A stretch of 35,722 nucleotides of DNA from Tangfeifania diversioriginum (lineage in GTDB: Bacteria > Bacteroidota > Bacteroidia > Bacteroidales > Prolixibacteraceae), in contig CAMCBW010000053.1 in NCBI GenBank assembly GCA_945873105.1, positions 1 through 35,722 of the forward strand, given 5' to 3'. Positions within the stretch are counted from its first letter, which is position 1. Every line of letters starts with the position of its first letter. Both the position numbers and the translations under genes were made by a program. Of the stretch, positions 643 to 27,183 are shown in pieces. The notes beneath the pieces are model-generated. The model worked only from the letters and a program-made list of their open reading frames with translations, ran no database searches and was not told where the DNA came from.

Positions 643-1557
643 ATGAAAATTGGTAAGGAAAGCAAAATTGTAGCACAGCGCTATCTATTTATTCTCAATC
701 CCATGGCTGGAGTTGGCGGGAGAAGGGATTTCCTGCAGCTCATTGAGAAAGCATGTACCGCGAAGGGAGTGAAATTCAAAATCCTTTTTACCAGGAGTCC
801 GGGGGATGCAAGAAAGATTATTCTGAAAAAATTTGACAAGTACGACATTTTTGTTGCTGTAGGCGGAGATGGAACCATGAATGAAGTGGCCTCTGCCCTG
901 GCAGGAACAACAGGAATCATGGGTTTGATTCCGGCAGGTTCAGGAAATGCCTTGGGCCGTGAGCTGGGCCTGTCCCTGAAACCTGAGCAGGCAGTTTACC
1001 AACTGTTGGAAGGACACCCGATCCGGATTGATACGGGACTGGTCAATGGACGCAGATTTATGAACGTTTGTGGTGTCGGTTTTGACAGCCATATTGCCCG
1101 TTGTTTCGCGAAATCAACCAGCCGTGGGCCGATTCCCTATTTCAAGGCGGTGATGAAGGAGTTTTTCAGGTACAAACCGGAGACCTATACCGTTGAAGCC
1201 GGTGGGAATATCACCTCCCATACCGCGTTCGTTTTGACCCTGGCCAATACCTCTCAATATGGCAACAATGCCTACATTGCTCCCGGCGCTACAGTGACGG
1301 ATGGTTTGCTTGATTTTTCCGCACTCAGACCATTTGGCCTTCTCGGGGCACTGGGATTGGGATTCAGGCTTTTCAACAGAACCATCCATCGTTCCAGGTT
1401 ATCGACCAGCTTCCAAACCACAGAGGTTGTGATCAATGGAGAAAACCTGAATTTTCATGTAGATGGAGAGCCGGTCAAAAACAACAAGCCCCTGCGTATT
1501 TCCATTGATCCGCTGTCGTTGAATATCGTAGTGCCGGGGAAAGCTATTAGCTATTAG
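643..1557 (+). CDS. Diacylglycerol/lipid kinase family protein (YegS/BmrU type)
   Basis: Predicted cytosolic or membrane-associated lipid kinase of 304 residues, the usual length for the DagK/YegS family, which phosphorylates diacylglycerol or related lipids. Visible motifs are the nucleotide-binding NPMAGVGG (residues 19-26), GGDGT at 74-78 followed by NEV, and PAGSGNALGREL at 97-108. The C-terminal half has the expected beta-rich pattern ending in a VDGEPV-type segment. The start is the first ATG in frame. The gene stands alone and converges with the response regulator. Its last codons (KAISY-stop) are built from the tandem word AGCTATT of the adjoining intergenic repeat, so the natural C-terminus may have been altered by that repeat. 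The lipid substrate cannot be read from sequence. Confidence 0.9.
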   Translation: MKIGKESKIVAQRYLFILNPMAGVGGRRDFLQLIEKACTAKGVKFKILFTRSPGDARKIILKKFDKYDIFVAVGGDGTMNEVASALAGTTGIMGLIPAGSGNALGRELGLSLKPEQAVYQLLEGHPIRIDTGLVNGRRFMNVCGVGFDSHIARCFAKSTSRGPIPYFKAVMKEFFRYKPETYTVEAGGNITSHTAFVLTLANTSQYGNNAYIAPGATVTDGLLDFSALRPFGLLGALGLGFRLFNRTIHRSRLSTSFQTTEVVINGENLNFHVDGEPVKNNKPLRISIDPLSLNIVVPGKAISY

Positions 1558-1676
1558 CTGTTGGCTTTTAGCTAATTGGCCCAATGATAATTAGATTGCA
1601 AATTTCTTGGAGTTCACTCTAACAGCTAATTGCTAATCCCTAATAGCTAACTGCTAACATCCAAAAGCTAACAGCC
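1541..1676. repeat. Inverted word repeat, AGCTAATTG family
   Basis: The left arm (1541-1580) repeats AGCTATTAGCT words and the right arm (1621-1676) repeats their complement (AGCTAATTGCTAA words), with about 40 bases between. It lies between two convergent genes, so it may act as a bidirectional terminator. It includes the stop codon of the lipid kinase gene. A half copy of the same word set lies at 17812-17844. Confidence 0.7.
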
Positions 1677-1688
1677 TGTTTACCTCCC

Positions 1689-2843
1689 TTATCCAACAAA
1701 GCTTTCTATATCCTCTGCTGCAATGGTTTTTCCTCCCAAAATAATCAGTCGCTCTATCACGTTCCTGAACTCCCGGATGTTGCCGCTCCAGGTGCGCAGC
1801 GCCAACATTTCTAGTGCTTCGGGGGTAATCTCTTTGACCGGTTGCCCATATTCACTGCACAGTTGTTCAATAAAATAGTGGGAGAGGAGCGGAATGTCCT
1901 CTTTCCGCTGATCCAGCGACGGTACATGGATCAGGATGACACTCAGCCGGTGGTAAAGATCCTCCCTGAAATTGCCGTGCCGGATCTCCTCCTGCAGCTC
2001 TTTGTTGGTCGCCGCAATCACCCTGACATTTACCTCAACAGGTTTATCACTGCCCACCCTGGTGATGATATTCTCCTGCAAGGCCCTGAGTACCTTGGCC
2101 TGTGCGGAGAGACTCATATCTCCAATTTCATCCAGAAAAAGGGTGCCGCCATCTGCCTGCTCAAATTTCCCTTTTCGTTGCTTGATCGCAGAGGTAAATG
2201 CCCCTTTCTCGTGACCAAACAACTCACTCTCAATTAATTCCGACGGTATTGCCGCGCAGTTGACTTCCACGAAAGGGTTTTCTGCTCTGGAGGAGCGTTC
2301 GTGCAGTCGTCGGGCTACAAGTTCTTTGCCAGTTCCATTGGCCCCGGTGATCAAGACCCTGGCTTCTGTCGGTGCAACCCTGTCGCACATTTCCAGCATC
2401 TTCCTGGTGGCGGCTGATTCACCGATGATTTTGAATTTTCCGCTCACTTTTTGTTTGAGAAACTGCGTCTCCTTGACCAGGGCCGTTTTGTCGGAGGCAT
2501 TGCGAAGGGTTATCAGGAGGCGGTTAAGATCCAATGGTTTCTCAATAAAATCAAATGCCCCCTTTTTGATGGCTTCCACGGCGGTATCGATGGTGCCATG
2601 TCCGCTGATCATCACGATGGTGGATTCAGGTTTGATTTTCATGATCTGCTCGAGTACCTCCAGTCCATCGATCTCCGGCATTTTGATGTCGCAGAGGATG
2701 ATGTCGAACTCGCTGGCCTGGGCCATATCGATCCCGCTTCTGCCATTTTCTGCCAGCTCAACCTGGTATCCTTCAAAGCCCAAAATATCCTTCAGGGTAT
2801 TCCGGATACTTCTTTCATCATCGATCACAAGTATTTTTAACAT
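1689..2843 (-). CDS. Sigma54-type response regulator, receiver plus AAA+, no HTH
   Basis: Two-component response regulator of the NtrC class, 384 residues. The receiver domain (1-120) has the acidic pair D8-D9 and the phospho-acceptor D52. The AAA+ sigma54-interaction domain (about 140-365) has Walker A GANGTGKE (167-174), Walker B FLDE (D238, E239), the REDLYHRL arginine region (293-300) and GNIREFRN near 355. Two things are odd. The sigma54-contact loop reads GAFTSA (214-219) instead of GAFTGA. The protein also ends at SFVG right after the AAA+ lid, so the C-terminal Fis-type DNA-binding domain of the usual ~450-residue family is missing. It may act from solution or through a partner. No histidine kinase gene is adjacent. 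It is separated from the upstream ppx gene by a strong hairpin. Confidence 0.92.
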   Translation of the reverse strand: MLKILVIDDERSIRNTLKDILGFEGYQVELAENGRSGIDMAQASEFDIILCDIKMPEIDGLEVLEQIMKIKPESTIVMISGHGTIDTAVEAIKKGAFDFIEKPLDLNRLLITLRNASDKTALVKETQFLKQKVSGKFKIIGESAATRKMLEMCDRVAPTEARVLITGANGTGKELVARRLHERSSRAENPFVEVNCAAIPSELIESELFGHEKGAFTSAIKQRKGKFEQADGGTLFLDEIGDMSLSAQAKVLRALQENIITRVGSDKPVEVNVRVIAATNKELQEEIRHGNFREDLYHRLSVILIHVPSLDQRKEDIPLLSHYFIEQLCSEYGQPVKEITPEALEMLALRTWSGNIREFRNVIERLIILGGKTIAAEDIESFVG

Positions 2844-2894
2844 GAGAGATTGTTATATGAAACCTCAGACCTACTAGATTATAAAAATTATTTT

Positions 2895-2967
2895 GGTCTC
2901 GCAAAGCTCGCAAAGTTGCGCAAAGGGCGTTTTTTGCTTTGCGTAACTTTGCGAGCTTTGCGAGACC
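2895..2967 (-). terminator. 31-bp near-perfect hairpin downstream of ppx
   Basis: Arms 2895-2925 and 2937-2967 are complementary at 30 of 31 positions, with an 11-nt loop. The arms are themselves made of repeated GCAAAGCTC / GCAAAGTT words. It starts four bases after the stop codon of the phosphatase gene and precedes the response regulator start, so it probably ends the ABC-ppx transcript. The sequence beyond it on the minus strand is AT-rich, with a T run. Confidence 0.65.
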
Positions 2968-2970
2968 TTT

Positions 2971-3900
2971 TTAACTGCACATCTCATACATCACCCCTTC
3001 CTTCAGCGAGAAATGAGTGTGGATCATCTCCCGGATCTCCAGTTTCCGCAGGATGAAATTAATAAATAGGATGGCAATGACGATCATCTCCACCCTGTTT
3101 TTATCCACACCGGGAATGAGGGAGCGTTTTTCCTTCCCCACGGACAACAATTGTTGGTGAATGCGGAAAAAATCATTCAACGGGAAGACGGATGATTTGC
3201 GGAAAGTTGCATCGGGTTCCTTCTCTTCAAGGATATCCATCAGGGTATCGAACGCCCCTGAACATCCTACCAGGATGCGGGGATTGTGAAGGTGGCATTG
3301 TGCTTCAAGTTCAGAAAGGTGTTCCCCGAACCAGGTTTCCACCAGGTTAATTTCCGCTGTTGCTGGAGGGTCTGACAAGGTGAATAGTTCAAGAACCCTG
3401 GCAATGCCGATGTTGATGCTTTTCTTCCAGATGATCCTGTCGCTCTCCGCCAGGATGAATTCGTTGCTACCCCCGCCAATGTCCAAAACCAGGTATTTCT
3501 CCTCCAGGGGAGGGAGCGAGTTTACCGTGCCCCTGAAAATGTATTCGGCCTCCCTGTTTCCATCGATTACCTCTATTGCCCAGCCAAACTGCTGCTTCAC
3601 CAGGTCGATAAATTTATCCCTGTTGGCAGCACCGCGGATGGCTGAAGTACCTATTACCCTTACCCGGGTGGCTCCATATTTTTTGATGTTTTTTTCATGA
3701 AGAGAGAGGGCACTCAACCCTCTCTCGATTGCTTCGGGAAGCAATTTTTTCTTGTGAATACCTCCGCTGCCCATTTTGACGGCAATCCGCTCCTCGTGCA
3801 GTACCCTGAAAGCACCTGGTCCTGACATTTCTGCGATCAGCAGGTTGAAGGTATTGGTACCTAAATCGATAACGGCATTTATGATTTGTAGGTCAGCCAT
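2971..3900 (-). CDS. Ppx/GppA family exopolyphosphatase
   Basis: Member of the actin-fold Ppx/GppA family, which hydrolyses inorganic polyphosphate or pppGpp. It has 309 residues and is the short two-domain form without the C-terminal HD extension of E. coli Ppx. The phosphate-1 motif VIDLGTNTFNLLIAE is at 10-24, the catalytic acidic region NREAEYIFRG at about 115-124, and the phosphate-2 motif VLDIGGGSNEF at 138-148. The start codon lies inside the last codons of the ABC permease gene (22-bp overlap), which suggests co-transcription and translational coupling. Substrate preference is not readable from sequence. Confidence 0.9.
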   Translation of the reverse strand: MADLQIINAVIDLGTNTFNLLIAEMSGPGAFRVLHEERIAVKMGSGGIHKKKLLPEAIERGLSALSLHEKNIKKYGATRVRVIGTSAIRGAANRDKFIDLVKQQFGWAIEVIDGNREAEYIFRGTVNSLPPLEEKYLVLDIGGGSNEFILAESDRIIWKKSINIGIARVLELFTLSDPPATAEINLVETWFGEHLSELEAQCHLHNPRILVGCSGAFDTLMDILEEKEPDATFRKSSVFPLNDFFRIHQQLLSVGKEKRSLIPGVDKNRVEMIVIAILFINFILRKLEIREMIHTHFSLKEGVMYEMCS

Positions 3901-5216
3901 TTGCCCAACTCCTTCCAGGAGGCTTTTTTACCGTACATCAGAATTCCGGTCCTGTAGATTTTACCAGCCGCCCATACCATGCCTACAAATGAGACAATCA
4001 GTATAATCATGGAGAGTGCCAGCTGCCAATAGGGTACTCCGAAAGGAATTCTGGCCATCATGACAATTGGCGAGGTGAATGGGACCATGCTGAACCAAAA
4101 GGCCACACTGCCTTCCGGATTCTTGATGGCACTCATCATTACCATGATCGACAGGATAATGGGCATCATGATCGGCATGATAAATTGCTGAGCATCCTCC
4201 GGAGCATCAACTGCTGAGCCAATGGCAGCATAGAGGGAACTGTACAATAGGTATCCACCGATGAAGAAAAATATAAAACAAAAGATAATCAGCGGGAAAT
4301 TTACAGAACCAAGGCTGGAAAGTATATCCTGCATCTTGTCAAGTTCGGCCGGAGAACCAGCCTGTGCAGCCATTTGTGATTGCGCCATGATCTCTTGGGC
4401 TGTTCCTGCTTTTTCAGCACCTGGTAACATTCCCCTGGCGCCTGAAATAATCGCGATACCAAGGATGATCCATATGGCCAGCTGGGTCAGGCCTACCATG
4501 GCGATACCAATTATCTTTCCCATCATCAGCTCGAAGGGTTTGACGCTCGAAATAATAACCTCTACGATGCGGCTCTGTTTCTCTTCCATGACTCCCTGCA
4601 TCACCATCTGGCCATAAATCAGCAAAAAGAAGTAGATCACAAATCCAAAGATGTAACCCAGAATCATTCCGATTTCTGTGGAACTTTTCTTGGCTTCCCC
4701 ACTTTCTCCCAATTTGATGGTATTGACACTGATGGGGGTTTTTGTGGCTTTGATTCTTGCTTCCAGGTCAGGAATGGCTGTTTGTTTGATCACCTCCGCC
4801 ATCTTCTCCTTTTCGATCACAGACCTGATCTTGTTTTGGATCTGGTTTTTAAGATCAAATGGGATGTTGCTGGTGGATACTAGTTGCACCGTTTTGGTTG
4901 TCAAAATATTGGGGTGAATGATCAACAAAGCATAATATTCTGTTGATTTAAGATTTTCCTTGATCTTGTTGTACTCCTCCTCCGGAATAAACTTGTATTT
5001 GGTATACTCGTTGCTTTCGAGTTGCCCCAACAGAATGGTGGATCCGTCGTAAACGGCAATGGTACGAACCTTGGTATCGTCCTGCGACATGAAGTAGGCG
5101 GGCAGAATGAACATGGCCGCCATAAGCACCGGCATCAGGAGTGTCACGACAATAAACGACTTTTTCTTGACCCTGGTGGTGTACTCTCTGGAGAGAACTA
5201 ATCCTATTTTGCTCAT
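3879..5216 (-). CDS. ABC-2 type transporter permease (NatB-like)
   Basis: Membrane subunit of a two-gene ABC exporter, 445 residues. One N-terminal membrane segment (about 20-42) is followed by a roughly 140-residue soluble, presumably extracytoplasmic, domain. A cluster of hydrophobic segments follows from about 185 to 430, the layout of NatB/ABC2_membrane_3 permeases. An internal linker at about 270-315 is rich in Ala, Gln and Met. The ATPase gene ends upstream of it with a gap of nine bases, and the ppx gene overlaps its end. In Bacillus, NatAB exports sodium; the substrate here is unknown. Confidence 0.88.
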   Translation of the reverse strand: MSKIGLVLSREYTTRVKKKSFIVVTLLMPVLMAAMFILPAYFMSQDDTKVRTIAVYDGSTILLGQLESNEYTKYKFIPEEEYNKIKENLKSTEYYALLIIHPNILTTKTVQLVSTSNIPFDLKNQIQNKIRSVIEKEKMAEVIKQTAIPDLEARIKATKTPISVNTIKLGESGEAKKSSTEIGMILGYIFGFVIYFFLLIYGQMVMQGVMEEKQSRIVEVIISSVKPFELMMGKIIGIAMVGLTQLAIWIILGIAIISGARGMLPGAEKAGTAQEIMAQSQMAAQAGSPAELDKMQDILSSLGSVNFPLIIFCFIFFFIGGYLLYSSLYAAIGSAVDAPEDAQQFIMPIMMPIILSIMVMMSAIKNPEGSVAFWFSMVPFTSPIVMMARIPFGVPYWQLALSMIILIVSFVGMVWAAGKIYRTGILMYGKKASWKELGKWLTYKS

Positions 5217-5225
5217 CTTGTTTGG

Positions 5226-6143: not shown

Positions 6144-6537
6144 GCTTCCTGTAAGTTATGGTTAATATCGATTGAACGAAGATAAGAATAAGTATTCATT
6201 TCATCGAAACATTACAGCTCAATTGGAATTTAACTTAATGAAATCCCCAAGAAACAATATTCACACCAACCGAGAATGAATATCTGGGGATTCCATCAGA
6301 CCTTAAAGAAAGCAAATTATATACTGATGAAATGAATACTTAAAAGGATAAAGGGCAAAGGCTAAAGGATAAAGTGGATTTGTTCGTGGCGAATAGACGT
6401 TCTTTTGTACAAGTTTTTTACTTTCCGTATTTAAGAGGATAGTTATAATGCAAAAACGCCACAATCATGACCGCGGCGTTTTTACTTTAACCTTTAACCT
6501 TTAACCTTTAACCTTTAACCTTTATCCTTTATCCTTT
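6144..6537. other. 394-bp intergenic region with stem-loop, terminator and word repeats
   Basis: No gene is seen. The promoter-side half contains an imperfect stem-loop at 6242-6292: AATCCCCA pairs with TGGGGATT and an inner ATATTCA pairs with TGAATAT. The half next to carB is filled by a word-repeat element (6341-6540) that encloses a hairpin at 6452-6483. Confidence 0.6.
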
Positions 6538-6540
6538 TTA
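6341..6540. repeat. Inverted word repeat, TTTAACC / AAAGGAT family (copy 1)
   Basis: The left arm (6341-6376) carries AAAGGATAAAGG and AAAGGCT words. The right arm (6484-6540) carries five tandem TTTAACC-type heptamers followed by TTTATCC units. The right arm directly abuts the carB stop codon. The inner border GCGGCGTT (6473-6480) followed by ACTTTAACC also occurs in copy 2 (12651-12658 onward), so the two copies are related beyond the simple repeat. Confidence 0.7.
6452..6483. terminator. Bidirectional rho-independent-type hairpin after carB
   Basis: AAAAACGCC (6452-6460) pairs with GGCGTTTTT (6475-6483) over nine bases with a 14-nt loop. Both strands end in a T5 run. It lies just beyond the carB stop within the word-repeat element and is a good candidate for ending the carAB transcript. 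Confidence 0.6.
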
Positions 6541-9500
6541 CTTGTACTCATCCCACGATTTGATGCTGATATCATCCATCTCCATCTTGCAGATGGCATA
6601 GATGAAGGCACTGGCCACCCGGGCATTGGTAATCAGCGGAATGTTGAAATCGATGGCATTCCTGCGGATGCGGTATCCATTCGACAACTCACGTTTGGTG
6701 TGGTCTTTGGGTATATTGATGACCATCTCGATTTTGCGTTGTTTGATCAGATCGAGTGTGTTGGGTGACATATCCTCCTCGTCTGGCCAGTAAACCTTCT
6801 CGGTTTCGACACCATTTTCCTGGAAGAAGTGGTGTGTGCCCCCCGTTGAATAGATGGTAAAACCGCGCTCCTGCAGCATTCTGGCACTGGCGAGCAATTC
6901 AATTTTACCTCTTACCGGACCAGAAGAGATCAGAATGGTCTTCTTCGGGATCCTGTAACCAACAGACAACATGGATTTCAGCAGTGCCTCGTAGAAATTT
7001 TCGCCGATGCAGCCCACTTCGCCGGTGGAGGCCATGTCGACACCCAGCACGGGGTCGGCATTCAGCAACCGGTGGAAGGAGAACTGCGGAGCCTTTACCC
7101 CCACATAATCCAGCTCAAACAATGATTTGTCAGGTTTTTCAAACGGAACATCCAGCATGGCCTTGGTGGCAATCTCGATCAGGTTTGTTTTCAAAACCTT
7201 GGATACAAACGGGAAAGATCTGGAAGCCCTCAAGTTGCATTCGATGACCTTGATGTCGTTGTCCTTGGCAAGGTACTGGATGTTGAAAGGACCTGTTATT
7301 TCGAGCGCTTTTGCAATCTTCTTGGAAATCTTCTTGATACGGCGGATGGTCTCCACATAGAGTTTCTGCGGAGGAAAGACGATGGTGGCATCCCCCGAGT
7401 GAACCCCTGCAAATTCGACGTGTTCGGACAGTGCGTAGGCTACAATTTCTCCGTTTTTTGCAACGGCATCTACCTCTATCTCTTTGGCATTCTCGATAAA
7501 TTCTGATACAACTACCGGATGTTCCTTCGACACATGGGCTGCCAGGGCAAGGAAATGTTCCAGCTGGTCGCGGTTGGAGACCACGTTCATGGCTGCACCC
7601 GAAAGGACGTAGGAGGGACGGATCAGTACCGGGAATCCGACTTCATCCACAAATTTGTAGATCTCTTCGATGGTAGTGAGCTGGCTCCAACGGGGTTGGT
7701 CTACCTCCAGCTTGTCGAGCATGGCCGAAAATTTGTTGCGGTCTTCGGCATTGTCGATTTTCTCGGCTGTGGTTCCCAAAATTGGGACATTCATGGCATG
7801 CAGCTTCATGGCCAGGTTGTTGGGGATCTGTCCACCCATGGAGAGTACGGTCCCTTTGGGATCTTCCAGGTCACAAATATCCAGCACCCTTTCCAGGGAT
7901 AGCTCATCGAAATAGAGCCTGTCGCAGTTGTCGTAATCGGTTGAAACAGTCTCAGGATTGTAGTTGATCATGATGGCACGGAAGCCTTCCTTACGTATGG
8001 TATTGACGGCATTGACCGAACACCAGTCGAACTCCACGGAAGAGCCAATCCGGTAGGCTCCGGAACCCAAAACGATGATGGATTGACTGTCGTGCTGGAA
8101 TTCCACGTCGTGTTCTGATCCGTTGTAGGTCAGGTAGAGGTAGTTGGTCTGGGCCGGATACTCCCCGGCCAAGGTATCAATCTGTTTGACAAAAGGCAAT
8201 ATCCCATGTTTTTTGCGGAATGATCTTACCTTCAGGCTTTCCACATTCATGTCGCTGACGGAGGATTTTACGACGATCCTGGCTATCTGGAAGTCTGAAA
8301 ACCCCAGCTTTTTTGCATCCTGCAATAGGTCTGCCGGAAGATTTTCCAGGGTATCGAAGCCGATCAATTGGCTCCTCAGCAGGTAGATATTTTGAAGGCG
8401 CATCAGGAACCACTTGTCAATCCGGGTGATCTCCCAGATTTTATCCACAGAATAACCTTTGTGAAAGGCTTCGGCGATGGCGAAAATCCGGCGGTCAGTC
8501 GGATTCACCAACTCTTCATCAATGTCGATGATCTCCATGTCACCCCTGTTGCCGACAAAACCGTGCATGCCGATGCCAATCATGCGGAGTCCCTTTTGGA
8601 TGGCCTCCTCAAAATTCCGGCCAATGGCCATGATTTCGCCAACTGACTTCATGCTGGATCCCAAATTTTTGGAGACTCCGACAAATTTGCCAAGGTCCCA
8701 GCGGGGGATTTTCACCACGCAATAGTCGAGCGCTGGTTCAAAACAGGCAGTTGTCTCTTTGGTCACCGAATTCTTCAGTTCATGCAGGCCATATCCCAGG
8801 CCCAGTTTGGCAGCCACGAAGGCCAGCGGATAGCCAGTTGCTTTGGAGGCTAGTGCTGAAGATCTTGAAAGTCTTGCATTTACTTCAATTACCCGATAGT
8901 CTTCTGAATTGGGATCCAGGGCAAACTGAACGTTGCATTCTCCAATCACCCCGATTTTTCGGATGATTTTGATGGAGAGGGCACGCAGCTTGTGGTATTC
9001 ATCGTTCGAAAGCGTCTGGGAAGGTGCCACCACAATCGATTCGCCGGTATGGATACCGAGCGGATCAAAGTTCTCCATGTTACAAACCGTGATACAGTTG
9101 TCGAATTGGTCGCGGACCACTTCGTACTCCACCTCTTTCCATCCCTTGATGGACTCCTCTACCAATATTTGACCGGAGTAGGAAAAAGCATTGTCGGCCA
9201 GTTTGTTGAGTTCAGTTTCGTTGGAACAAAAGCCCGAACCAAGACCACCCAAGGTATAGGCTGCACGAATGATCAGCGGATAACCCAGCGTGTTGGCAGC
9301 TTCCCTGGCTTGCTCAATTGAGGTACAGGCGATGCTTCGGGGTGTCAATACATCGATTTCATGCAGAATGCCGGAGAAAATTTCGCGGTCTTCGGTATTG
9401 ATAATGGACTGGACGGGTGTACCTACCACTTTGAGGTTGTATTTCTCCAGGATTCCCTGGCGAAAGAGATCTACTCCGCAGTTGAGGGCAGTTTGTCCGC

Positions 9501-9768: not shown

Positions 9769-9783
9769 AGCTATTTGTATTTG

Positions 9784-9903
9784 AGTGCCTAGAGTGCGCT
9801 AAAGTGAGCTAAAGTGCCTAAAGTACTTTCGCCAAATGCAACATTTGTTCGGAGTCCATAACTTTAGGCATTCTAGGCACTTTAGCGCACTTTAGGCACT
9901 TTT
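9784..9903. repeat. Inverted word repeat, GTGCCTAAA family (copy 1)
   Basis: The left arm (9784-9829) and right arm (9859-9903) are made of AGTGCCTA / CTAAAGTGC words and are complementary in bulk. The right arm overlaps the end of carA, whose last codons KVPKVR-stop are written in repeat words. The inner segment GGAGTCCATAACTTTAGGCA (9851-9870) and a 21-nt segment at 9809-9829 recur exactly in copy 2 near 22.1 kb. Confidence 0.8.
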
Positions 9904-11135: not shown

Positions 11136-11147
11136 GGAAACCACGAG

Positions 11148-11163
11148 ATTTATAAATATTCAT
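11148..11163. promoter_or_regulatory. ARG-box-like site 1
   Basis: ATTTATAAATATTCAT; its reverse complement ATGAATATTTATAAAT resembles the Bacillus/E. coli ARG box (TGAATnnnnAT core). An identical 16-mer lies 70 bp away at 11218, about seven helical turns. It sits just upstream of the carA -33 element in the carA-argR divergent region. Confidence 0.5.
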
Positions 11164-11217
11164 AAATATTTAACATACGACGAATATTTGACATTTATAT
11201 GCAAAATAATCATATTC

Positions 11218-11233
11218 ATTTATAAATATTCAT
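11218..11233. promoter_or_regulatory. ARG-box-like site 2
   Basis: Exact second copy of the 16-mer at 11148-11163. It abuts the putative argR -7 element TATTTTTG (11234-11241), so bound ArgR would be expected to block argR transcription. Confidence 0.5.
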
Positions 11234-11801: not shown

Positions 11802-11875
11802 TGGTTTGAAGAGTTTTTTGAGTTTGAAATGTTTGAAAAGTTAAAACCCTTCAAACTTTTTAAACCCTTCAAACA
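11802..11875. repeat. Inverted word repeat, GTTTGAAG family (copy 1)
   Basis: The left arm (11802-11842) of GTTTGAA words is followed by a right arm (11848-11875) of CCTTCAAAC words, with an almost absent loop. It lies between argR and the GNAT gene. Related copies are at 13961-14048 and, as one arm only, at 27031-27075. Confidence 0.65.
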
Positions 11876-11913
11876 TTACAGAAAAAATTTAAATTAGACA
11901 TTACTGTAAAACG

Positions 11914-12558
11914 ATGATATTCAAGAAGAAAAATATTGCAGATAACAAACCGGAAATCAAGGTGTTGCTGGCAGATGAATCCCATCTGAAATATGTGGAT
12001 GAAATCAACGATACCATCGAGAAGGCTTCCAAGGAGCGAGGTACCGGTATAGCGCGGCGTACCTACGAATACATCGCTGGAAAAATCAGCGATGGGAAGG
12101 CAATCATCGCTTTGGACGGGGAAAAATTTGCAGGATTTTGCTACATTGAATCGTGGAGTGACGAGCAATATGTGGCCAATTCCGGTTTGATTGTTCATTG
12201 GGATTACCGTGGCGGCGGACTTGCCCGCCGGATCAAGCACAAGGCTTTTGAAATATCCAGAAAGAAGTTTCCAAAAGCCAAGTTGTTTGGACTGACCACC
12301 GGCTTGGCCGTCATGAAAATCAACTCCGAATTGGGCTACAGGCCGGTTACCTTCTCCGAACTTACAGATGACGAACAATTTTGGAAAGGCTGTCAGAGTT
12401 GCGTCAACTACGACATCCTGCTTCGGATGAAACACTCCAAGTGCTTGTGTACCGGGATGTTGTTTGATCCTGCCTGGCAAAAGGAGAAGAGCAAAATGAA
12501 CATGCCATTTGAGATGTTCAAGGAGTGGCTGGAGAAAAAGAATAAGGCTAAAGGCTAA
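11914..12558 (+). CDS. GNAT acyltransferase, probable N-acylglutamate synthase
   Basis: GNAT-fold acyl-CoA transferase, 214 residues. Its place between argR and argG, with no other ArgA or ArgJ in the cluster, makes it the likely enzyme for the first step, acylation of glutamate. The CoA-binding loop YRGGGLARRI is at 98-107, and GLTTGLAVMKINSELGYRPV at 126-145 is the typical late GNAT region. The C-terminal part adds four cysteines, C160 and C163 (CQSC) and C177 and C179 (CLC), which look like a metal site not found in ordinary GNATs. Whether it uses acetyl- or succinyl-CoA is open; the SOTCase-type ArgF' here favours succinyl. Its last codons (KAKG-stop) come from the adjoining AAGGCTA word repeat. 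Confidence 0.8.
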   Translation: MIFKKKNIADNKPEIKVLLADESHLKYVDEINDTIEKASKERGTGIARRTYEYIAGKISDGKAIIALDGEKFAGFCYIESWSDEQYVANSGLIVHWDYRGGGLARRIKHKAFEISRKKFPKAKLFGLTTGLAVMKINSELGYRPVTFSELTDDEQFWKGCQSCVNYDILLRMKHSKCLCTGMLFDPAWQKEKSKMNMPFEMFKEWLEKKNKAKG

Positions 12559-12717
12559 AGTTTAAAGGATAAAGTGGAAATATGTGCAGGTGGAGGATAA
12601 GAGCTAAAAGTTGCGGGATACGGGAAACGAGTTACGAGATAATATTGATTGCGGCGTTCTTCACTTTAACCTTTAACCTTTAACCTTTATCCTTTATCCT
12701 TTATCCTTTATCCTTTT
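12544..12717. repeat. Inverted word repeat, TTTAACC / AAAGGAT family (copy 2)
   Basis: The left arm (12544-12576) consists of AAAGGCT and AAAGGAT words and contains the GNAT stop codon. The right arm (12662-12717) consists of TTTAACC and TTTATCC units. The inner border GCGGCGTT plus ACTTTAACC matches copy 1. The central 12600-12650 stretch has its own ACGAGTTACGAGAT word doubling. It lies between the GNAT gene and argG. Confidence 0.7.
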
Positions 12718-13952: not shown

Positions 13953-13960
13953 GACACCAA

Positions 13961-14048
13961 GGTTTGAAGGGTTTGAAATGTTTAAAATGTTTAAAAAGTT
14001 GCGAACCCAAAACATTTCAAACCCTTCAAACCTTCAAACCTTTCAAAC
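13961..14048. repeat. Inverted word repeat, GTTTGAAG family (copy 2)
   Basis: A perfect 23-bp inverted repeat pairs 13961-13983 (beginning GGTTTGAAGGGTTTGAAATG) with 14010-14032. Extra GTTTAAAATG and TTCAAACC words extend each arm, and the loop is about 26 nt. It fills almost the whole gap between argG and argC. Confidence 0.8.
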
Positions 14049-15041: not shown

Positions 15042-15052
15042 CAAAAAAAGTG

Positions 15053-15185
15053 ATTTTGGATTTTCGATTTTGGATTTTGGATTGCGCTACGGTGTAGGTT
15101 AGCAATGTAGTATAGTTTTTTTTATATCGTGGGTATCACAGAAGTTTATATCCCGTGCTTCATTCCAAAATCGAAAATCCAAAAT
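15053..15185. repeat. Inverted repeat, GATTTTGG words, upstream of argD
   Basis: A perfect 22-bp inverted repeat pairs 15053-15074 with 15164-15185; its core word is GATTTTGGATTTTCG. The 89-nt spacer has no other clear structure. It lies between argC and argD and explains why an upstream extension of argD stays open: those extra codons are repeat sequence. Confidence 0.75.
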
Positions 15186-17811: not shown

Positions 17812-17844
17812 GCTAATTCCTAATTGCTAAAAGCTAACAGCTTG
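17812..17844. repeat. Half copy of AGCTAATTG word repeat
   Basis: AGCTAATTCCTAATTGCTAA and AAGCTAACAGCTT words, as in the right arm of the element at 1541-1676, but no matching left arm is seen here. It lies in the 106-bp gap before proB. Confidence 0.5.
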
Positions 17845-17865
17845 AAGTTTATATAAATAAAATTA

Positions 17866-18957: not shown

Positions 18958-20210
18958 TGTTGGAAGACCTGCAATACAACTTTGAGCTGGCCCTGGCTGC
19001 CAGCAGAAAACTGGGAAGCCTCTCAGGGGTGCAGATCAATGCACTGCTCCTCCGGCTGGCAGATGCAGCTGAAGCATCAGCTAATGAGATACTTGCCGAA
19101 AACCAGAAGGACTTGGATCAGATGGATCCCTCCGATCCAAAATTCGATCGGCTGAAGCTGACAAAATCCCGGATTGAAGCGATCGCTGCAGATATCAGGA
19201 ATGTGGCTGCTTTGCCTTCCCCGTTAGGGAGAATCCTTACTCAAAATACCTTGCCCAATGGGTTAAATATTAAAAAGATAAGCGTGCCTTTTGGGGTGAT
19301 TGGTATCATCTATGAGGCACGCCCCAACGTTACTTTTGATGTATTCTCCCTCTGTATCAAATCAGGTAACGCAGTGGTATTGAAAGGGGGCAGCGATGCC
19401 GACTATTCCAACCGGGCCATTGTGTCCTTGATAAAAAACGTATTGAAGGATTGCGCTGTCGATGAAAATGCGCTGGTTTTACTGCCTCCTTCGCGTGAAG
19501 CTACTACTGCCTTGCTTCACGCCAGGGGATATGTAGATCTGATCATCCCGCGGGGTAGTCAGGCATTGATTGATTATGTAAGGGAGAATGCCAGAATTCC
19601 GGTCATTGAAACTGGTGCAGGTATTTGCCATACCTATTTTGACAGGGAAGGAGATCTGGAGATAGGCAGGAAGGTGGTACACAACGCCAAAACCCGCAGG
19701 GTAAGTGTTTGCAATGCGCTCGACTGTTTGGTTTTACACAGGGAACGAATCGGCGATTTACCCGAACTGGTTGGCTTGATGTCCGGCCACCAGGTGGAAA
19801 TTTATGCCGATCCGGATGCTTTCGCTGCCTTGACGGGGAAATATCCGGCTCATCTGCTGCAACCAGCAGTTCCAGCCTCCTATGGCACGGAATTTCTCGA
19901 TTACAAAATGGCGGTAAAAACTGTATCTTCGTTGGAGGAGGCATTGGATCACATTGCCACCTTCAGTTCAAAGCACAGTGAAGCGATTGTAACTACCTGC
20001 CGGGAAACTGCAGATCAGTTCTTGCGCGACGTGGATGCTGCTGCCGTTTATCTCAATGCAAGTACTGCATTTACCGATGGCGGACAATTTGGATTGGGTG
20101 CCGAAATAGGCATAAGCACCCAAAAACTGCATGCCCGTGGCCCGATGGCCTTGCAGGAGATCACCACCTACAAATGGATCGTGGAGGGGGAGGGGCAGGT
20201 AAGGGAATAA
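18957..20210 (+). CDS. proA: Gamma-glutamyl phosphate reductase
   Basis: NADPH-dependent reductase that takes glutamyl phosphate from ProB to glutamate semialdehyde. It has 417 residues from the ATG at 18957, which shares one base with the proB stop; a TTG three bases earlier is a less likely start. The aldehyde-dehydrogenase fold shows [16 protein letters not shown] at 113-128, and the catalytic cysteine is C252 in [10 protein letters not shown]. ProB and ProA form a channelled complex in other bacteria, consistent with the coupled genes. A word-repeat region follows before argF'. Confidence 0.96.
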
Positions 20211-20350
20211 TGTGAAAATTGGGAAATGTGGAAATTGGAAAATGTGAAAATTCGACTATTCGACAATGAAAGAACACGCTAATGTACATTTTCTGGTAAC
20301 TCCTAGCCCATAACTCATAACTTATAACTCATAACTCATATATCATAACT
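20211..20350. repeat. Tandem-word region between proA and argF'
   Basis: The left part (20211-20265) has repeated TGTGAAAATT / TGGGAAATG words and ATTCGAC words. The right part (20313-20350) is tandem AACTCATA / AACTTATA heptamer-like units. The two halves are not obviously complementary, unlike most other gaps here, so this could be two half elements side by side. Confidence 0.55.
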
Positions 20351-20360
20351 TTCTTCTATT

Positions 20361-22087: not shown

Positions 22088-22089
22088 GA

Positions 22090-22199
22090 AGTGCCTAAAG
22101 TGCCTAGAGTGCTCTAAAGTGCCTAAAGTACTTTTTGGAGGGCAAGTTGGGAGTCCATAACTTTAGGCACTCTAGGCACTTTAAATACTCTAGGCACTT
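22090..22199. repeat. Inverted word repeat, GTGCCTAAA family (copy 2)
   Basis: The left arm is 22090-22134 and the right arm 22158-22199. A 21-nt segment (22114-22134) and GGAGTCCATAACTTTAGGCA (22150-22169) are identical to copy 1 near 9.8 kb, including the non-palindromic GGAGTCCATAA part, which points to common ancestry of the two elements. It lies between argB and argE. Confidence 0.8.
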
Positions 22200-22234
22200 G
22201 TCGCATAGGAAACAAAAGTTAATTATAGTTGCCA

Positions 22235-23293: not shown

Positions 23294-23308
23294 ATTAATA
23301 GAACGGGT

Positions 23309-23336
23309 GTAGAGACGCACGGCCGTGCGTCTCTAC
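23309..23336. repeat. REP-like palindrome 1 (perfect, 28 bp)
   Basis: The half site GTAGAGACGCACGG is followed directly by its exact reverse complement. It lies immediately upstream of the RAYT gene, 18 bases before its ATG. It is the reference copy for the four others nearby. Confidence 0.85.
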
Positions 23337-23354
23337 GAAACAAACCGACATCAA

Positions 23355-23936
23355 ATGTCAGATAAATTTGCAAACAGATTTCGGATACCCTCTGCCCGAT
23401 TGAAGAATTGGGATTATAGCAGCGAAGCAACCTATTTTATTACCATTTGCACCGCGGGCCGGGAATGTTTGTTTGGTTCAATTACTGGGGAGATAATGAA
23501 TCTTTCTCCTATTGGTCAGATTGTCAAGGAGGAATTTGAAAAATCATTCGCCATCCGTGCCGAATTGTTCTACGATGCTTTTGTTATCATGCCTAACCAT
23601 TTACATGCCCTTTTGCGCATTGAAAACGATCCTGTAAACTATCAATTGCAGGATGTAACCGCTGTAGAGACGCACGGCCGTGCGTCTCTACCACCATCAC
23701 CAAATTATGGAATTGCGTTTAGGGCCAAAAAATCTATTTCATCTTTTGTGGCTGGATTCAAATCAGCGGCGACAAAAAGGGTAAACCAATATCGCCAAAT
23801 GCGCGGAATGATCCTGTGGCAGGAACGGTTTCACGACCATATTATCAGGAACGATGCAGAATATCAACGAATTTTGGAATATATTGAAACGAATCCGACC
23901 CATTGGGAAACAGATTCCATGCGAGATCCCTTGTAG
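23355..23936 (+). CDS. REP-associated tyrosine transposase (RAYT, Y1 HUH)
   Basis: IS200/IS605-like Y1 nuclease of the RAYT group, which nicks REP hairpins; 193 residues. The HUH motif is MPNHLHALL (H82, H84). A nucleophile candidate is Y146 in NQYR, and the C-terminal YIETNPTHW (177-185) is typical of RAYTs. I start at ATG 23355; the frame is open upstream only through the REP palindrome. A second perfect REP copy (23664-23691) lies inside the gene and encodes VETHGRASLP (104-113). A third supplies the TAG stop. The gene is thus bounded and interrupted by its presumed substrate. It appears intact, so it may be active. Confidence 0.88.
   Translation: MSDKFANRFRIPSARLKNWDYSSEATYFITICTAGRECLFGSITGEIMNLSPIGQIVKEEFEKSFAIRAELFYDAFVIMPNHLHALLRIENDPVNYQLQDVTAVETHGRASLPPSPNYGIAFRAKKSISSFVAGFKSAATKRVNQYRQMRGMILWQERFHDHIIRNDAEYQRILEYIETNPTHWETDSMRDPL
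23664..23691. repeat. REP-like palindrome 2, inside the RAYT gene
   Basis: Identical to palindrome 1 over all 28 bases, in frame within the RAYT coding sequence. The encoded ETHGRASL stretch sits in a loop between the HUH strand and the tyrosine helix, where an insertion would be tolerated. Confidence 0.85.
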
Positions 23937-24066
23937 AGACGCACGGCTGTGCGTCTTCCCCGAACAGGGCGAATAAATATTGATTACAGAGACGCACGGC
24001 CGTGCGTCTTCCCCAAACAAGGCGAATAAATATTGATTACAGAGACGCACGGCCGCGCGTCTCTAC
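23933..24066. repeat. Three REP-like palindromes with a 53-bp tandem duplication
   Basis: Imperfect copies lie at 23933-23961 (contains the RAYT stop codon), 23986-24014 and 24039-24066. Copies 3 and 4 have CTTCCCC in place of the closing CTCTAC on the right side. The unit starting GCGTCTTCCCC at 23951 is repeated at 24004 (period 53) with few changes, so this array grew by tandem duplication. It lies between convergent RAYT and DUF4494 genes. Confidence 0.8.
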
Positions 24067-24077
24067 CGTGCGTTCTA

Positions 24078-24614
24078 TCAATTCAGCGACAGATCATCCT
24101 CTTCCTCAATTTCTTCTGTATCATCCCCCCCGAAAGGGTCATCCCCATTGATGATTTTGGTGAAATTATCAGGCATTTTCTGCACCTCAGGGACATAGGG
24201 GAAAACATCCACGATCGGGCTTTCGGTGATCCCGCCAATTTCGAAGTCGGCCATCATTCCTTTCATCGCTTCGATGACCTGGTCGTAGGCACTCTTCACG
24301 TTGTCTGAAAAGACCAGCACAAACTGACTGACCCTCTTCTCCTTGCCATTCTCTTCGTCGAAAGTGATGAAAGTGACCTTTGCCTTGTACCATCGGTCGC
24401 CCATTTCGGAGGGAATGATCTCTGCCAATTTTGTTTTGGAGATACGGGTCACTGTAAATTCTCCGCTTACCATGGAAACCAGCTCCTTGTAGATGCGTGT
24501 CTCTGCTTCGGTGAAGGAGACCGCATCCAATAGGTAGGTCTCGCTAACTTTTTTCTCGCGGCCATCTTCGCCCATCTTGGCATATTTTGCCGTACATTCA
24601 AACCAGGTATTCAT
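24078..24614 (-). CDS. DUF4494 family protein, unknown function
   Basis: A 178-residue, probably cytosolic protein of the Bacteroidetes family DUF4494. It begins MNTWFECTAKYAKMGEDGREKKVSETYLLDAVSFTEAETRI. It has no signal peptide or membrane segment. The N-terminal 140 residues look like an alpha/beta fold with repeated KVxET and FVLVF strands. The C-terminal ~35 residues form an acidic tail (GGDDTEEIEEEDD). Function is unknown. It stands alone between the REP array and a repeat region. Confidence 0.85.
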   Translation of the reverse strand: MNTWFECTAKYAKMGEDGREKKVSETYLLDAVSFTEAETRIYKELVSMVSGEFTVTRISKTKLAEIIPSEMGDRWYKAKVTFITFDEENGKEKRVSQFVLVFSDNVKSAYDQVIEAMKGMMADFEIGGITESPIVDVFPYVPEVQKMPDNFTKIINGDDPFGGDDTEEIEEEDDLSLN

Positions 24615-24651
24615 TTTCTATATAATTATTTTGTATGCTTTAATTGGGAAG

Positions 24652-24812
24652 TGACTAAAGTGAACTAGAGTGACTAGAGTGCCTAAAGTATTTGGCGCCC
24701 TTGGCCACGAATAGTCTGAGCCAAATCTAATTCATTTTACTTCAATGCCCACTTTACCCCTTATCCTTTACCCTTTACCCTTTACCCTTTAACCTTTACC
24801 CTTTATCCTTTT
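24652..24812. repeat. Chimeric word repeat: half GTGCCTAAA, half TTTAACC family
   Basis: The left part (24652-24690) carries GTGACTAAAGTG / GTGCCTAAAG words without their complement. The right part (24750-24812) carries TTTACCC, TTTAACC and TTTATCC units without theirs. It looks like half of each of two families joined around a ~60-nt spacer. The right part encodes the C-terminus of the adjacent GDSL hydrolase. Confidence 0.6.
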
Positions 24813-25514
24813 ACTAATCTCCGCCTTCACCAAAGCACTCCAGATCTTGTATCCTTCGGGGTTGAGGTGAAGCAGGTCACTGCGAAAAAGTTCGTTGCGG
24901 GGTTCCCCCTTTTCGTTCAGGAAATGCTGGGCTGTCTCGATGAAATAGACTTTTTTCTCTTGTTGGCAGATTGCTTTCAGTTTGGCATTGTCTTCCTGGA
25001 TGACACTCCATTTCTTCCACCGGCTCCCGGTAGGCGTGATTTCGATGAGGAAGATGGGTTGCTTCTTGTATTTGGCACGAAGGACCCTGATAATTTTCCG
25101 GAAGTTTTCGCTGCTCTCCGTGGGAGTAAGATCATTGGGGGACCCTGTAATGTCGTTGGCGATAAAAATCACGACTCCAGCCAAATTATGGGGATAGGCA
25201 ATCCGTTCAATGTATTGTAATACGGCAGGGGAATTGGATCCTCCAAAACCTCTCTGAATGACAGGATAAGGCGCCATATCCTCCTTCAGGGTACTCCACA
25301 AACGGATACTTGAACTCCCGGTAAACAGGATGGAGTGGCCGGAATATTTCTCCGTCTGGTTGAGCTTGTCGAAGGCAGCAATTTCGCCTTCCCATTTGGT
25401 GGTTGGTTGAGCCTGTTTTTCCTGTGCAATAGCGGTGGAAATGAAAACCAGCGTGGCGAAAATCAGTGTTGATAATCTAATCAATGAAAAAGCTCTTCTC
25501 TTGTTCATAATCAT
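24789..25514 (-). CDS. Secreted SGNH/GDSL-type hydrolase
   Basis: Predicted exported esterase or acetylhydrolase of the SGNH fold, 241 residues. The signal peptide covers 1-30 (hydrophobic LIRLSTLIFATLVFISTAIA, then Q). Block I is FTGSSSIRLW with the nucleophile Ser near 67-68, block II is the Gly in RGFGGSNS, block III the Asn in IANDI (N120), and block V is D213-x-x-H216 in SDLLHLNP. Members often deacetylate sugars or cell-wall material; the substrate is not known here. The last residues KRIKGKG are encoded by the adjoining AAAGGATAAAGGGT repeat. An alternative start is the second ATG, six bases in. Confidence 0.88.
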   Translation of the reverse strand: MIMNKRRAFSLIRLSTLIFATLVFISTAIAQEKQAQPTTKWEGEIAAFDKLNQTEKYSGHSILFTGSSSIRLWSTLKEDMAPYPVIQRGFGGSNSPAVLQYIERIAYPHNLAGVVIFIANDITGSPNDLTPTESSENFRKIIRVLRAKYKKQPIFLIEITPTGSRWKKWSVIQEDNAKLKAICQQEKKVYFIETAQHFLNEKGEPRNELFRSDLLHLNPEGYKIWSALVKAEISKRIKGKG

Positions 25515-25530
25515 TGGTCTATTTTTTTGT

Positions 25531-25687
25531 TTATCCGCTACGCGGAAATCTACTTGATGGTTATGTCATTCTACCATACTTAATCAGCTACGCGGAAAAT
25601 AATGTGTAACTAATTAATCTTGAGGCATATGATTGCCAAATACAGAAAAGGACAGTTCTAAAAACTAGTTTTCCGCATAGCGGATAA
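25531..25687. repeat. Second REP-like family, three copies
   Basis: Copies of TTATCCGCTACGCGGAAA lie at 25531-25548 and, slightly changed, at 25581-25599. A third inverted copy with TAG in place of TAC-type centre lies at 25669-25687. Each has a CCGC...GCGG stem. The outer copies face each other, so the whole 157 bp could also fold as one large hairpin. It lies between rimO and the GDSL gene. The sequence is unrelated to the RAYT palindromes. Confidence 0.7.
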
Positions 25688-25730
25688 GGTATTGTAGAAA
25701 ATATCGTTTCAGTGAGGGAAATTACCAAAA

Positions 25731-27020
25731 TTAAACGATTTCGCCATAGAGGTCAAACTCTTCGGCATCAGTAATTTTCACCTGATAGTACGCCCCAATG
25801 GTAACGCGTTTTCCGCTGATAAGCACCTCTCCGTCCACTTCTGGTGAATCAAACTCGGTACGTCCAATAAAATAGTCTTCCTCTTCCCGGTCGATGACCA
25901 CCTTCATGATAGTCCCTATTTTCTTGCGGTTGATCTCCAGGGCAATCTCCTGTTGGATGGCCATGATCTCTTCGGCACGTGCCTGTTTTACCTCCTGCGG
26001 GATGTTATCATCATACGTTTCTCCGGCATAGGTATCTTCTTCATGGGAATAGGGAAATACCCCAAGTCGTTCGAACCGCATCTCCCTGACAAACTCCTTC
26101 AGCTCTTCAAAATCTGCTTCTGTTTCGCCCGGGTGACCCACAAGGAGAGTGGTTCTGAGGTGAATTCCCTGTACCTCTTCCCTGATTCTGCGAATGAGGG
26201 CAATGGTCTCAGCCTTGGTGATATTCCTGCGCATCAGCTTCAGTACCTTGTCGCTACAATGTTGCAAAGCGATATCCAGGTAACTGGCAATATTTTCGTT
26301 TTCGCGCATTACCGGCAAGAGATCGTACGGGAATTTGGTGGGATAGGCATAGTGCAGCTTAATCCATTCGATTCCGGGGATGGCTGCCAGCTTTTGTGTC
26401 AGCTCAGCCAATTTCTGTTCCTTGTAGAGATCTATGCCATAGAACGAGAGATCCTGGGCTATCACCAACAGCTCTTTGACCCCTTTTTCTGCCAGGGCAG
26501 TTGCCTCATTTACGAGATCATCCATGGATATGGACTGGTGTTTGCCGGTCATTCTCGGGATGGCACAATAGGAACACTGCCGGTTGCATCCTTCCGAGAT
26601 CTTGAGATAGGCATAGTGGGCCGGTGTGGTTTGGTAGCGTTGGTGGGAGAGGCTCATCCGGTATTCGGCCTTCAGATCCTCCACCATCTTCTTTACCTGG
26701 AATTTTCCGTAGAAACCATCTACTTCCGGTATCTCCCTGAGCAAGTCATCCTTGTATCGTTCAGTCAGGCAACCAAATACGAATATTTTGTCAATTTCCC
26801 CCCTGCTTTTTGCTTCGACAAATTCCAGGATGGTATTGATCGACTCCTCCTTGGCATCCAGGATAAATCCACAGGTATTGATGGCTACTGTACGGGCATC
26901 CGCAATTTCTCCATCATGAACTACCTTGTAGCCATTGGCCGCCATTTGTGAAAGAAAGAGCTCCGAATCAACCAGGTTCTTGGAGCAACCCATGGTGACA
27001 ACGTTGATAGATTTGGCCAT
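25731..27020 (-). CDS. rimO: Ribosomal protein S12 methylthiotransferase
   Basis: Radical SAM enzyme adding a methylthio group to Asp of ribosomal protein uS12, 429 residues. The N-terminal UPF0004 domain has the second-cluster cysteines C12, C50 and C84. The radical SAM CxxxCxxC is C145, C149 and C152 (EGCNRQCSYCAIPRMTG). The C-terminal TRAM domain covers about 365-429. The MGCSKNLVDSE start and overall length match RimO rather than MiaB. It follows ftsY with a 159-bp gap containing repeat words and is near ribosomal protein genes, which fits its role. Confidence 0.95.
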   Translation of the reverse strand: MAKSINVVTMGCSKNLVDSELFLSQMAANGYKVVHDGEIADARTVAINTCGFILDAKEESINTILEFVEAKSRGEIDKIFVFGCLTERYKDDLLREIPEVDGFYGKFQVKKMVEDLKAEYRMSLSHQRYQTTPAHYAYLKISEGCNRQCSYCAIPRMTGKHQSISMDDLVNEATALAEKGVKELLVIAQDLSFYGIDLYKEQKLAELTQKLAAIPGIEWIKLHYAYPTKFPYDLLPVMRENENIASYLDIALQHCSDKVLKLMRRNITKAETIALIRRIREEVQGIHLRTTLLVGHPGETEADFEELKEFVREMRFERLGVFPYSHEEDTYAGETYDDNIPQEVKQARAEEIMAIQQEIALEINRKKIGTIMKVVIDREEEDYFIGRTEFDSPEVDGEVLISGKRVTIGAYYQVKITDAEEFDLYGEIV

Positions 27021-27030
27021 AACACCGGGA

Positions 27031-27183
27031 ATTGTTTGAAGGGTTTCTTATGGTTTGAAAAGTTTGAAAGGTTACGGGTTGCCAGCCAGAGTTCCCATTC
27101 AGTCGAAGAATAGAGATGTTGCCAAGCGTACTTCAGTCCCTGTCGAATCGTCGAATTGTCACATTGCCGAATGGTCGAATTAT
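27031..27183. repeat. Half GTTTGAAG repeat and GTCGAAT words between rimO and ftsY
   Basis: 27031-27075 has GTTTGAAGGGTTT / GGTTTGAAAAGTTTGAAAGG words of the family found at 11802 and 13961, but no complementary arm. 27141-27180 has three GTCGAAT words running up to the ftsY stop. ATTCGAC words also occur at 20250-20265. Confidence 0.5.

Follow-up and report, generated by a model that had tools for sequence, protein, structure and literature searches.

The window analysed here is a 35,722-nt stretch of DNA, contig 53 of a draft genome of Tangfeifania diversioriginum (5.36 Mb in 99 contigs), in which nine intergenic gaps hold inverted pairs of tandem 7–10 nt words and four more hold halves or mixed arms. 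We consider these hairpins likely to be non-autonomous copies, similar to miniature inverted-repeat transposable elements (MITEs), of a small mobile stem-loop element akin to the intervening sequences (IVSs) of 23S rRNA, copies that lack the gene for the 23S rRNA intervening-sequence protein (IVP/S23) of the full element; kinship between the hairpins and the IVP-bearing elements is very likely. The full element opens with a G-rich arm of tandem words and an untranslated stretch, continues with the IVP gene, whose ~120 codons specify a four-helix-bundle protein (PF05635, TIGR02436), and closes with an arm of reverse-complement words. We directly observed this architecture, the sharing of words and polarity by IVP-less copies, an association between word and protein, and insertion into gaps of a few bases.

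Dispersed word families and their polarity

Across 13 stretches (276 kb) we counted 92 intergenic arrays and 20 pairs, while each of three dinucleotide shuffles of the same gaps gave 4–6 arrays and no pairs, in line with the initial annotation of the window, which had read the repeats as something other than chance low complexity and placed them at, or a few bases from, the arrays found here. In 53 stretches including the window (1,075,722 bp), 38 pairs were found, each mostly intergenic, and 130 of 714 gaps held arrays. Among window gaps of at least 40 bp (gene calls in the gap census came from a simple purpose-made caller), a mechanical detector found a tandem array in 14/21 and a scored inverted pair in 7/21, compared with 115/465 and 25/465 in the remaining genome sample; the window is thus richer than the genome average. 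One of its 14 arrays (11148–11170, AT-rich, in the divergent carA–argR gap) was not counted as a word element. The repeats had also been said to occupy most gaps and to lie between transcription units: the former holds for 1.5–27.2 kb but not for 28–35.7 kb, which contains no arrays, and the latter needs correcting, as many elements separate co-directional neighbours within the arg/pro gene run.

Word families were set by eye and their patterns then counted; below, G000 denotes the window's genome, one of the eight genomes of the genus set. Polarity was scored with fixed word patterns over the G000 stretches and eight genus loci. Where both sides of a gap carried words, the G-type word preceded its reverse complement in 60 of 65 gap-family cases, including 42/42 for AAAGG, AGTGCC, GATTTTG, GTTTGAA and TTAGCT; the five exceptions belonged to CACAAAG (3/7) and GAAATG (2/11). 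Single arrays in co-directional gaps were G-rich by the upstream stop in 20 cases and C-rich by the downstream start in 10, with 7 and 3 in the opposite placements and 5 ties, and at other Bacteroidota loci 21 and 36 followed the same rule versus 8 and 12 against it (4 ties).

The families are dispersed, as had been proposed. Spacers of AGTGCC elements at unlinked loci resemble one another, with 13 of 105 spacer pairs reaching a Smith–Waterman (SW) score of 15 versus 0/105 after shuffling (3/21 vs 0 for AAAGG, 3/10 vs 0 for GATTTTG, 3/28 vs 1 for GAAATG), and a three-word AAAGG pattern has 226 matches in the window's genome, its reversed control 0. The same pattern had 2 to 82 matches in five of the seven other genus genomes and occurred in 1/117 other Bacteroidota (phylum sample), and among 61 relatives the AGTGCC pattern was confined to G000, G003 and G007, apart from one match in G022. 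Judged by this distribution, the words are local (genus) dialects. Arg-region contigs from named Bacteroidota, among them Pedobacter and Bacteroides, also carried similar inverted arrays of other words, which vary by genus (pairs scored in L035, L037, L074 and L078; L031 was not among the positives). Stop-codon supply as the origin of the words was considered and dropped, since the GATTTTG and CGCAAAG words contain no stop (by eye).

IVP genes between inverted word arms

A small gene inside the GATGAAT element that G003 carries between argC and argD matched PF05635 ('23S rRNA IVP'), and four other IVPs of the genus matched TIGR02436 ('four helix bundle protein'). Above its cut-off, PF05635 was found in 8/8 genus genomes (55 of 61 hits), 52/60 genomes of the family sample, 74/99 of the phylum sample and 0/14 control genomes. 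Arms were scored by SW alignment of the two 400-nt flanks of the gene, with a threshold of 16, which was reached at 25/30 and 16/20 genus IVP loci (41/50), compared with 13/235 pairings of flanks from different loci, 7/673 control genes of the window's genome and 0/131 of the short control genes. Outside the genus, where the family, phylum and plasmid samples comprised the highest-scoring IVPs only, the threshold was reached at 7/30 family, 9/30 phylum and 5/10 plasmid loci (nulls 0/231, 1/231 and 4/73), and at four of six more cyanobacterial plasmid loci, two of these four being the same element; 16 of 18 plasmid hits were taken in (H17 and H18 were left out, as was L300). The signature is therefore clear in the genus and present at a minority of the loci sampled elsewhere. 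Five further genus hits comprised one with arms (L295, score 34) and four that did not score, being short, broken or near contig ends (L296–L299); the flank score misses pairs in which the IVP stop codon falls inside the array, as at L272.

A tandem inverted pair was present at 72 IVP loci. At 68 of these the more G-rich arm lay upstream, at 1 the more C-rich one, and 3 were ties; the IVP-less elements have this same polarity. None of the 19 genus IVP loci with both neighbours called lay in a divergent gap. The architecture surrounds IVP genes in Bacteroidota, on cyanobacterial plasmids and on one Gemmatimonadota plasmid. In the window's genome, IVP genes stand between inverted arms of AAAGG, AAGTGCC, GAAATG and GACAATTCG words, GATTTTG words occurring upstream only, and IVP-less copies outnumber IVP copies. 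The solved relative that a sequence comparison picked out was 2rld (E 3e-17), and a Xanthomonas homologue is a pentameric ring according to an excerpt of PMC4990558. On cyanobacterial plasmids (L265, L269 and L341), IVP genes were found within CRISPR runs, twice in the order cas6–IVP–cas4 and once as cas10–IVP–cmr3.

Particular words go with particular IVPs (Table 1), and an IVP-bearing cousin was found in the genus for 8 of 9 window word families, CGCAAAG alone being without one among the loci read. Protein and word similarity were correlated over 72 loci (Mantel r = 0.41 for all pairs, 0.197 at protein scores <0.6 and 0.155 between sample groups; 0/5000 permutations each), after 48 of 120 IVP loci without an SW score of 14 plus a tandem segment had been dropped beforehand, with L295–L299 and L339–L344, which came to view later, outside the set. 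The nearest protein neighbour in another genome had a word cosine >0.3 at 34/72 loci, compared with 2.9% of all such pairs, and did not exceed this value at the remaining 38. Between related elements, words were better kept than the untranslated stretch (mean 0.44 vs 0.26 per base; shuffled 0.16). Furthermore, when four word patterns were tabulated over eight genomes, at least five matches occurred in 11/12 cells with the matching IVP and in 1/20 without it (p = 1e-6; exceptions GAAATG in G003, with 4 matches and an IVP present, and GAAATG in G002, with 11 matches and no IVP seen), where the five-match threshold was chosen after the counts had been seen, IVP loci supply some of the matches, the typing of IVPs was visual, and word variants were the ground for taking G006 and G007 as AAAGG-type. 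An earlier table, still lacking the final IVPs, stood at 9/10 vs 3/22 (p = 7e-5); G003 and G007 had shown words with no known IVP before L295 and L299 were read. From these sequence comparisons, we lean towards each IVP recognising its own word.

Table 1 Words and the IVPs found with them
Word	IVP	Loci
TTAGCT	M(R/K)(N/D)(F/Y)-type	three genus loci, L246 (phylum sample), Pseudanabaena and Calothrix plasmids (Calothrix: upstream array only)
AAAGG	NDLQ.RLF-type	G000 (two), G002, G003; word variants in G006, G007
GATTTTG	MENQIKIRTK-type	G004, G007; G000 upstream only
GAAATG	NNVIV.KSF-type	G000, G003, G004; G007 broken, one-sided
AAGTGCC	FEIRTRKFAISI-type	G000
AAGTACTT	sister of FEIRTRKFAISI-type	G003; one-sided in G006, G007
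GTTTGAA		G002
ATGAGTT (window word CATAACT)		G002
GACAATTCG (window word GTCGAAT)		G000, G007
TTGACAA		G007

Insertion at short gaps and competing explanations

We compared 17 gaps in up to nine genomes, two outgroups included. The carB–carA gap holds an AGTGCC element in G000, G002 and G006, is free of words in G001 and measures 8 bp in each outgroup; argG–argC holds a GTTTGAA element in G000, 5 bp in G003 and both outgroups, and 15 bp in G006; argC–argD carries GATTTTG words in G000, G002 and G007 and GATGAAT words in G003 and G005; and proC–xre has a TTGACAA pair in G007 only, with a short piece in G006. Thus, elements are gained and lost at gaps only a few bases long, and different families can occupy the same gap. 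The outcome that the initial annotation had named as speaking for purely local sequence, the same elements in orthologous gaps with ordinary divergence and no extra genomic copies, is not what we found: the gaps differ in presence, absence, family or single arm.

Insertion could also be followed in Nostoc sp. ATCC 53789, whose plasmids pNsp_a and pNsp_c share a three-gene stretch at 91–97% identity. Genes 1 and 2 are separated in pNsp_a by an IVP element of ~413 nt with AGTCAGA words and in pNsp_c by 3 bp; genes 2 and 3 are 3 bp apart in pNsp_a, and in pNsp_c a different IVP element of ~498 nt with AAAAGGG-type words lies there. Overlap between the alignments amounts to 5 nt (TTCTA) at the first site and 3 nt at the second. 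The TTCTA overlap may reflect target duplication, or TTCTAG may belong to the element end, since ATTCTAG also terminates a related Aulosira element.

As a mechanism, we propose that each IVP would bind the word array of its own element in the form of single-stranded DNA or folded RNA. It would also help the hairpin, whether or not the IVP gene is included, to be copied in cis and in trans to further intergenic sites; by acting in trans it would carry along IVP-less copies with the right arms. The best-surviving copies would be those that follow a stop codon, at a place where the transcript is able to fold and may be cleaved by RNase III, as reported for the IVSs of 23S rRNA (excerpt of PMC4990558). 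Such processing of the elements is, in our estimate, an evenly balanced possibility, and if it occurs, insertion within an operon would do little harm. Should each IVP read its own word, IVP function would become testable by simple binding and mobility assays; the proposal, if true, would also give a single explanation for many unexplained intergenic tandem-word repeats and reveal a self-spreading source of RNA hairpins within operons. Slightly short of even odds, in our view, is a wider class of minimal mobile elements, spanning Bacteroidota, Cyanobacteriota and further phyla, whose non-enzymatic IVP of 120 residues would read a subfamily-specific word on both arms and spread hairpins, both carrying and lacking its gene, into gaps after stop codons, with the IVS of 23S rRNA as a special habitat and several unexplained tandem heptamers as footprints.

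Terminators, RNA-stability elements and non-autonomous mobile hairpins had all been offered by the initial annotation, and the last has largely held up as the best of these options, now with IVP as a candidate coding partner. Selection at 3' ends, with expanded words serving as bidirectional terminators or RNA-stability hairpins and IVP genes as occasional passengers, would fit the placement of pairs, which in gaps of at least 60 bp occupy 11/57 convergent, 20/311 co-directional and 1/82 divergent ones (convergent vs divergent p = 2e-4), as well as the folding of element RNA into long stems (z-scores of −2.4 to −12 in the eight of nine window elements that were folded) and a terminator-like, GC-rich hairpin with a T run, seen by eye only in the 6342–6543 spacer (no terminator scan was run). 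By the gap counts, pairs favour 3' ends. However, arm mismatches in co-directional gaps number 49 for G–T and 68 for A–C, so the transcribed strand shows no preference for wobble pairs, and compensatory pairing was dropped as a sign of selection on RNA; gaps within the arg run are empty in relatives; and the inverted arms at 41/50 IVP genes and the word–protein association are left unexplained. We regard this explanation as unlikely.

A purely local origin, in which slippage during replication and switching of template at hairpins would create immobile, functionless elements whose shared words reflect mutational taste, strikes us as improbable. Heptamer slippage has been published as an idea (quoted in an excerpt of PMC4679880), arm lengths differ, and inverted copying could equalise arms; yet unlinked loci share spacer cores, words appear as genus dialects of nearly fixed polarity, and arms match only marginally better within a locus than between loci. 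In permutations of arms between loci, the observed mean was reached 57 times out of 2000 for AGTGCC, 64 for GAAATG, 93 for ACGCAAAG, 162 for CACAAAG, 472 for TTAGCT, 954 for GATTTTG, 1723 for AAAGG and 1728 for GTTTGAA. Repetitive extragenic palindromic (REP)-type repeats moved by the window's own RAYT-like Y1 transposase deserve very little credence: a Y1_Tnp gene is indeed present (23325–23936), but it is flanked by its own GTAGAGACGCACGGCCGTGCGTCTCTAC palindromes, unlike the tandem words.

Several observations weigh against our preferred reading of the hairpins as IVP-less copies of a mobile element. Within a family, arms sharing a locus match little better, if at all, than arms of different loci, and co-evolution of arms was dropped as a main argument on these grounds. 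The window contains no IVP gene, and the interiors of IVP-less and IVP elements are barely alike (mean scores 8.2–11.0 vs 8.0–10.0 shuffled, best match 24), for which reason simple internal deletion of IVP elements is not supported as the source of the IVP-less ones. In 40 kb per genome sampled outside the genus, ten IVP-rich genomes yielded only 2 IVP-less pairs and 24 arrays, and eight IVP-free genomes 0 pairs and 16 arrays, a weak difference. Some close IVPs go with unlike words (protein score and word cosine 0.81 and 0.10 for L176/L180, 0.74 and 0.06 for L205/L209, 0.71 and 0.00 for L226/L228). Moreover, neither relatedness nor base composition is preserved in the permutations, so the word–protein association could come from gene and arms descending together, without recognition. 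No clear target-site duplication was seen at the two Nostoc sites, and we know of no catalytic function of IVP. A copying model based on reverse transcriptase was also tried and is unsupported in the window's genome, where RVT_1 has 0 matches (5/8 genus genomes have matches).

Features of the window and comparison with known systems

The word elements are listed in Table 2. Among the genes of the window are yegS, ppx, carB, carA, argR, argG, argC, argD, proC, proB, proA, argF, argB, argE, rimO and ftsY, together with genes for an NtrC-like regulator, an ABC pair, a GNAT protein, an XRE-cupin protein, a Y1 transposase, a DUF4494 protein and a GDSL lipase. Pfam was used to check ten proteins, and the remaining names come from reading the translations. 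An Rfam scan of the window gave no matches at gathering score.

Table 2 Word elements of the window
Positions	Strand	Feature	Gap	Remarks
1541–1675	.	TTAGCT/AGCTAA (AGCTATT) inverted pair	yegS/ntrC, convergent	pair at 1542–1655; same gap has pair in G006, none in G002
2895–2967	.	CTCGCAAAG-word hairpin (inverted pair)	ntrC–ppx	no IVP cousin found; absent from the initial annotation
6342–6543	.	AAAGGNT inverted pair	abc1–carB	AAAAACGCC..GGCGTTTTT hairpin inside spacer
9784–9902	.	AAGTGCCTA-word inverted pair	carB–carA	same family in G002, G006
11803–11880	.	GTTTGAA inverted pair (GTTTGAAGG/GTTTGAAAT)	argR–GNAT	
12544–12716	.	AAAGGNT inverted pair	GNAT–argG	single arm in G006
13959–14048	.	GTTTGAA inverted pair (GTTTGAAGG/GTTTGAAAT)	argG–argC	
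15052–15185	.	GATTTTG inverted pair	argC–argD	GATGAAT words in G003 (with IVP gene) and G005
17812–17842	+	single arm, GCTAA words (TTAGCT family)	xre–proB	
20209–20350	+	mixed: GGAAATGTG arm left, CATAACT arm right	proA–argF	
22089–22199	.	AAGTGCCTA-word inverted pair	argB–argE	AAGTACTT dialect in G003, G006
24649–24811	.	mixed: AAGTGCC-family arm and AAAGG-family arm (24649/24752)	duf4494–gdsl	
27034–27181	.	mixed: GTTTGAA arm and GTCGAAT arm (27034/27141)	rimO–ftsY	

Other repeats lie among these elements. The divergent carA–argR gap (11148–11227) contains AT-rich ATTCATAAATATTCA repeats that presumably resemble ArgR operators. A perfect 17-nt inverted repeat, TAAGTATTCATTTCATC, at 6189–6205 and 6326–6342 adjoins the AAAGG element of abc1–carB, and G006 retains most of it next to a 2.8 kb gap. 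The gdsl–rimO gap (25531–25687) holds GCTACGCGGAA/TTCCGCATAGCGGA palindromic repeats of a separate family, with CACAAAG words at the same gap in G002 and G007. At 23308–24066, GTAGAGACGCACGGCCGTGCGTCTCTAC palindromes flank the Y1/IS200-like (RAYT-like) transposase gene, and a 53-bp tandem unit contains two of these palindromes; at the same gap G007 has a partial copy, and G002 and G006 have none. Further downstream, a Pfam check identified a PIN-domain gene and a DUF6364 gene in tandem (29829–30505), resembling a toxin–antitoxin pair, and an IS110-family transposase gene (34262–35476).

REP/RAYT repeats are extragenic palindromes that prefer 3' ends, like the window elements. REPs, however, are single 20–40 bp palindromes, whereas the word arms of the window are without a GTAG/CGTC tag, and the palindromes at 23308–24066 form a family separate from them. 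Avd of diversity-generating retroelements is a four-helix-bundle pentamer similar to IVP; unlike in those systems, no reverse transcriptase was seen tied to the elements, and G000 has no RVT_1 match. With MITEs the elements share inverted ends that recur on a coding element of the same genome, but the partner here is a small non-enzymatic four-helix-bundle protein rather than a transposase, and the arms are tandem words. The TAACTGA heptamer repeats of Beggiatoaceae, Cyanobacteria and some Bacteroidetes, known with short tandemly repeated repetitive (STRR) sequences as intergenic tandem 7-nt words, are likewise comparable, although some window families have words of 8–10 nt instead. According to an excerpt of PMC4679880, they are intergenic and lie by start codons in one orientation, one set following a stop codon in reverse; they are direct repeats of one word with one inverted case, and the excerpt mentions no link to IVP.

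With the IVSs of 23S rRNA, the elements share terminal inverted repeats forming a stem (nine window gaps; eight elements folded) and an IVP reading frame in some members, here in genus cousins with the same words outside the window. Other 23S rRNA IVSs carry no IVP gene. Some copies do carry one, as stated in an excerpt of PMC4990558, which gives the S23/IVP fold as solved, its function as not known, and the function and origin of IVSs as unclear. The window elements differ in standing between protein genes, not in a 23S rRNA gene, and in comprising many word families in many copies, with arms of tandem 7–10 nt words. The initial annotation knew of no described family that would fit; this stands for the intergenic form, as searches of open-licence literature listed no report that ties IVP/S23 genes to arms of tandem words or gives the intergenic elements a name, but not for the architecture, which matches that of the 23S rRNA IVSs. 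We therefore file the elements as a variant of IVS-type elements, which may represent a broader class.

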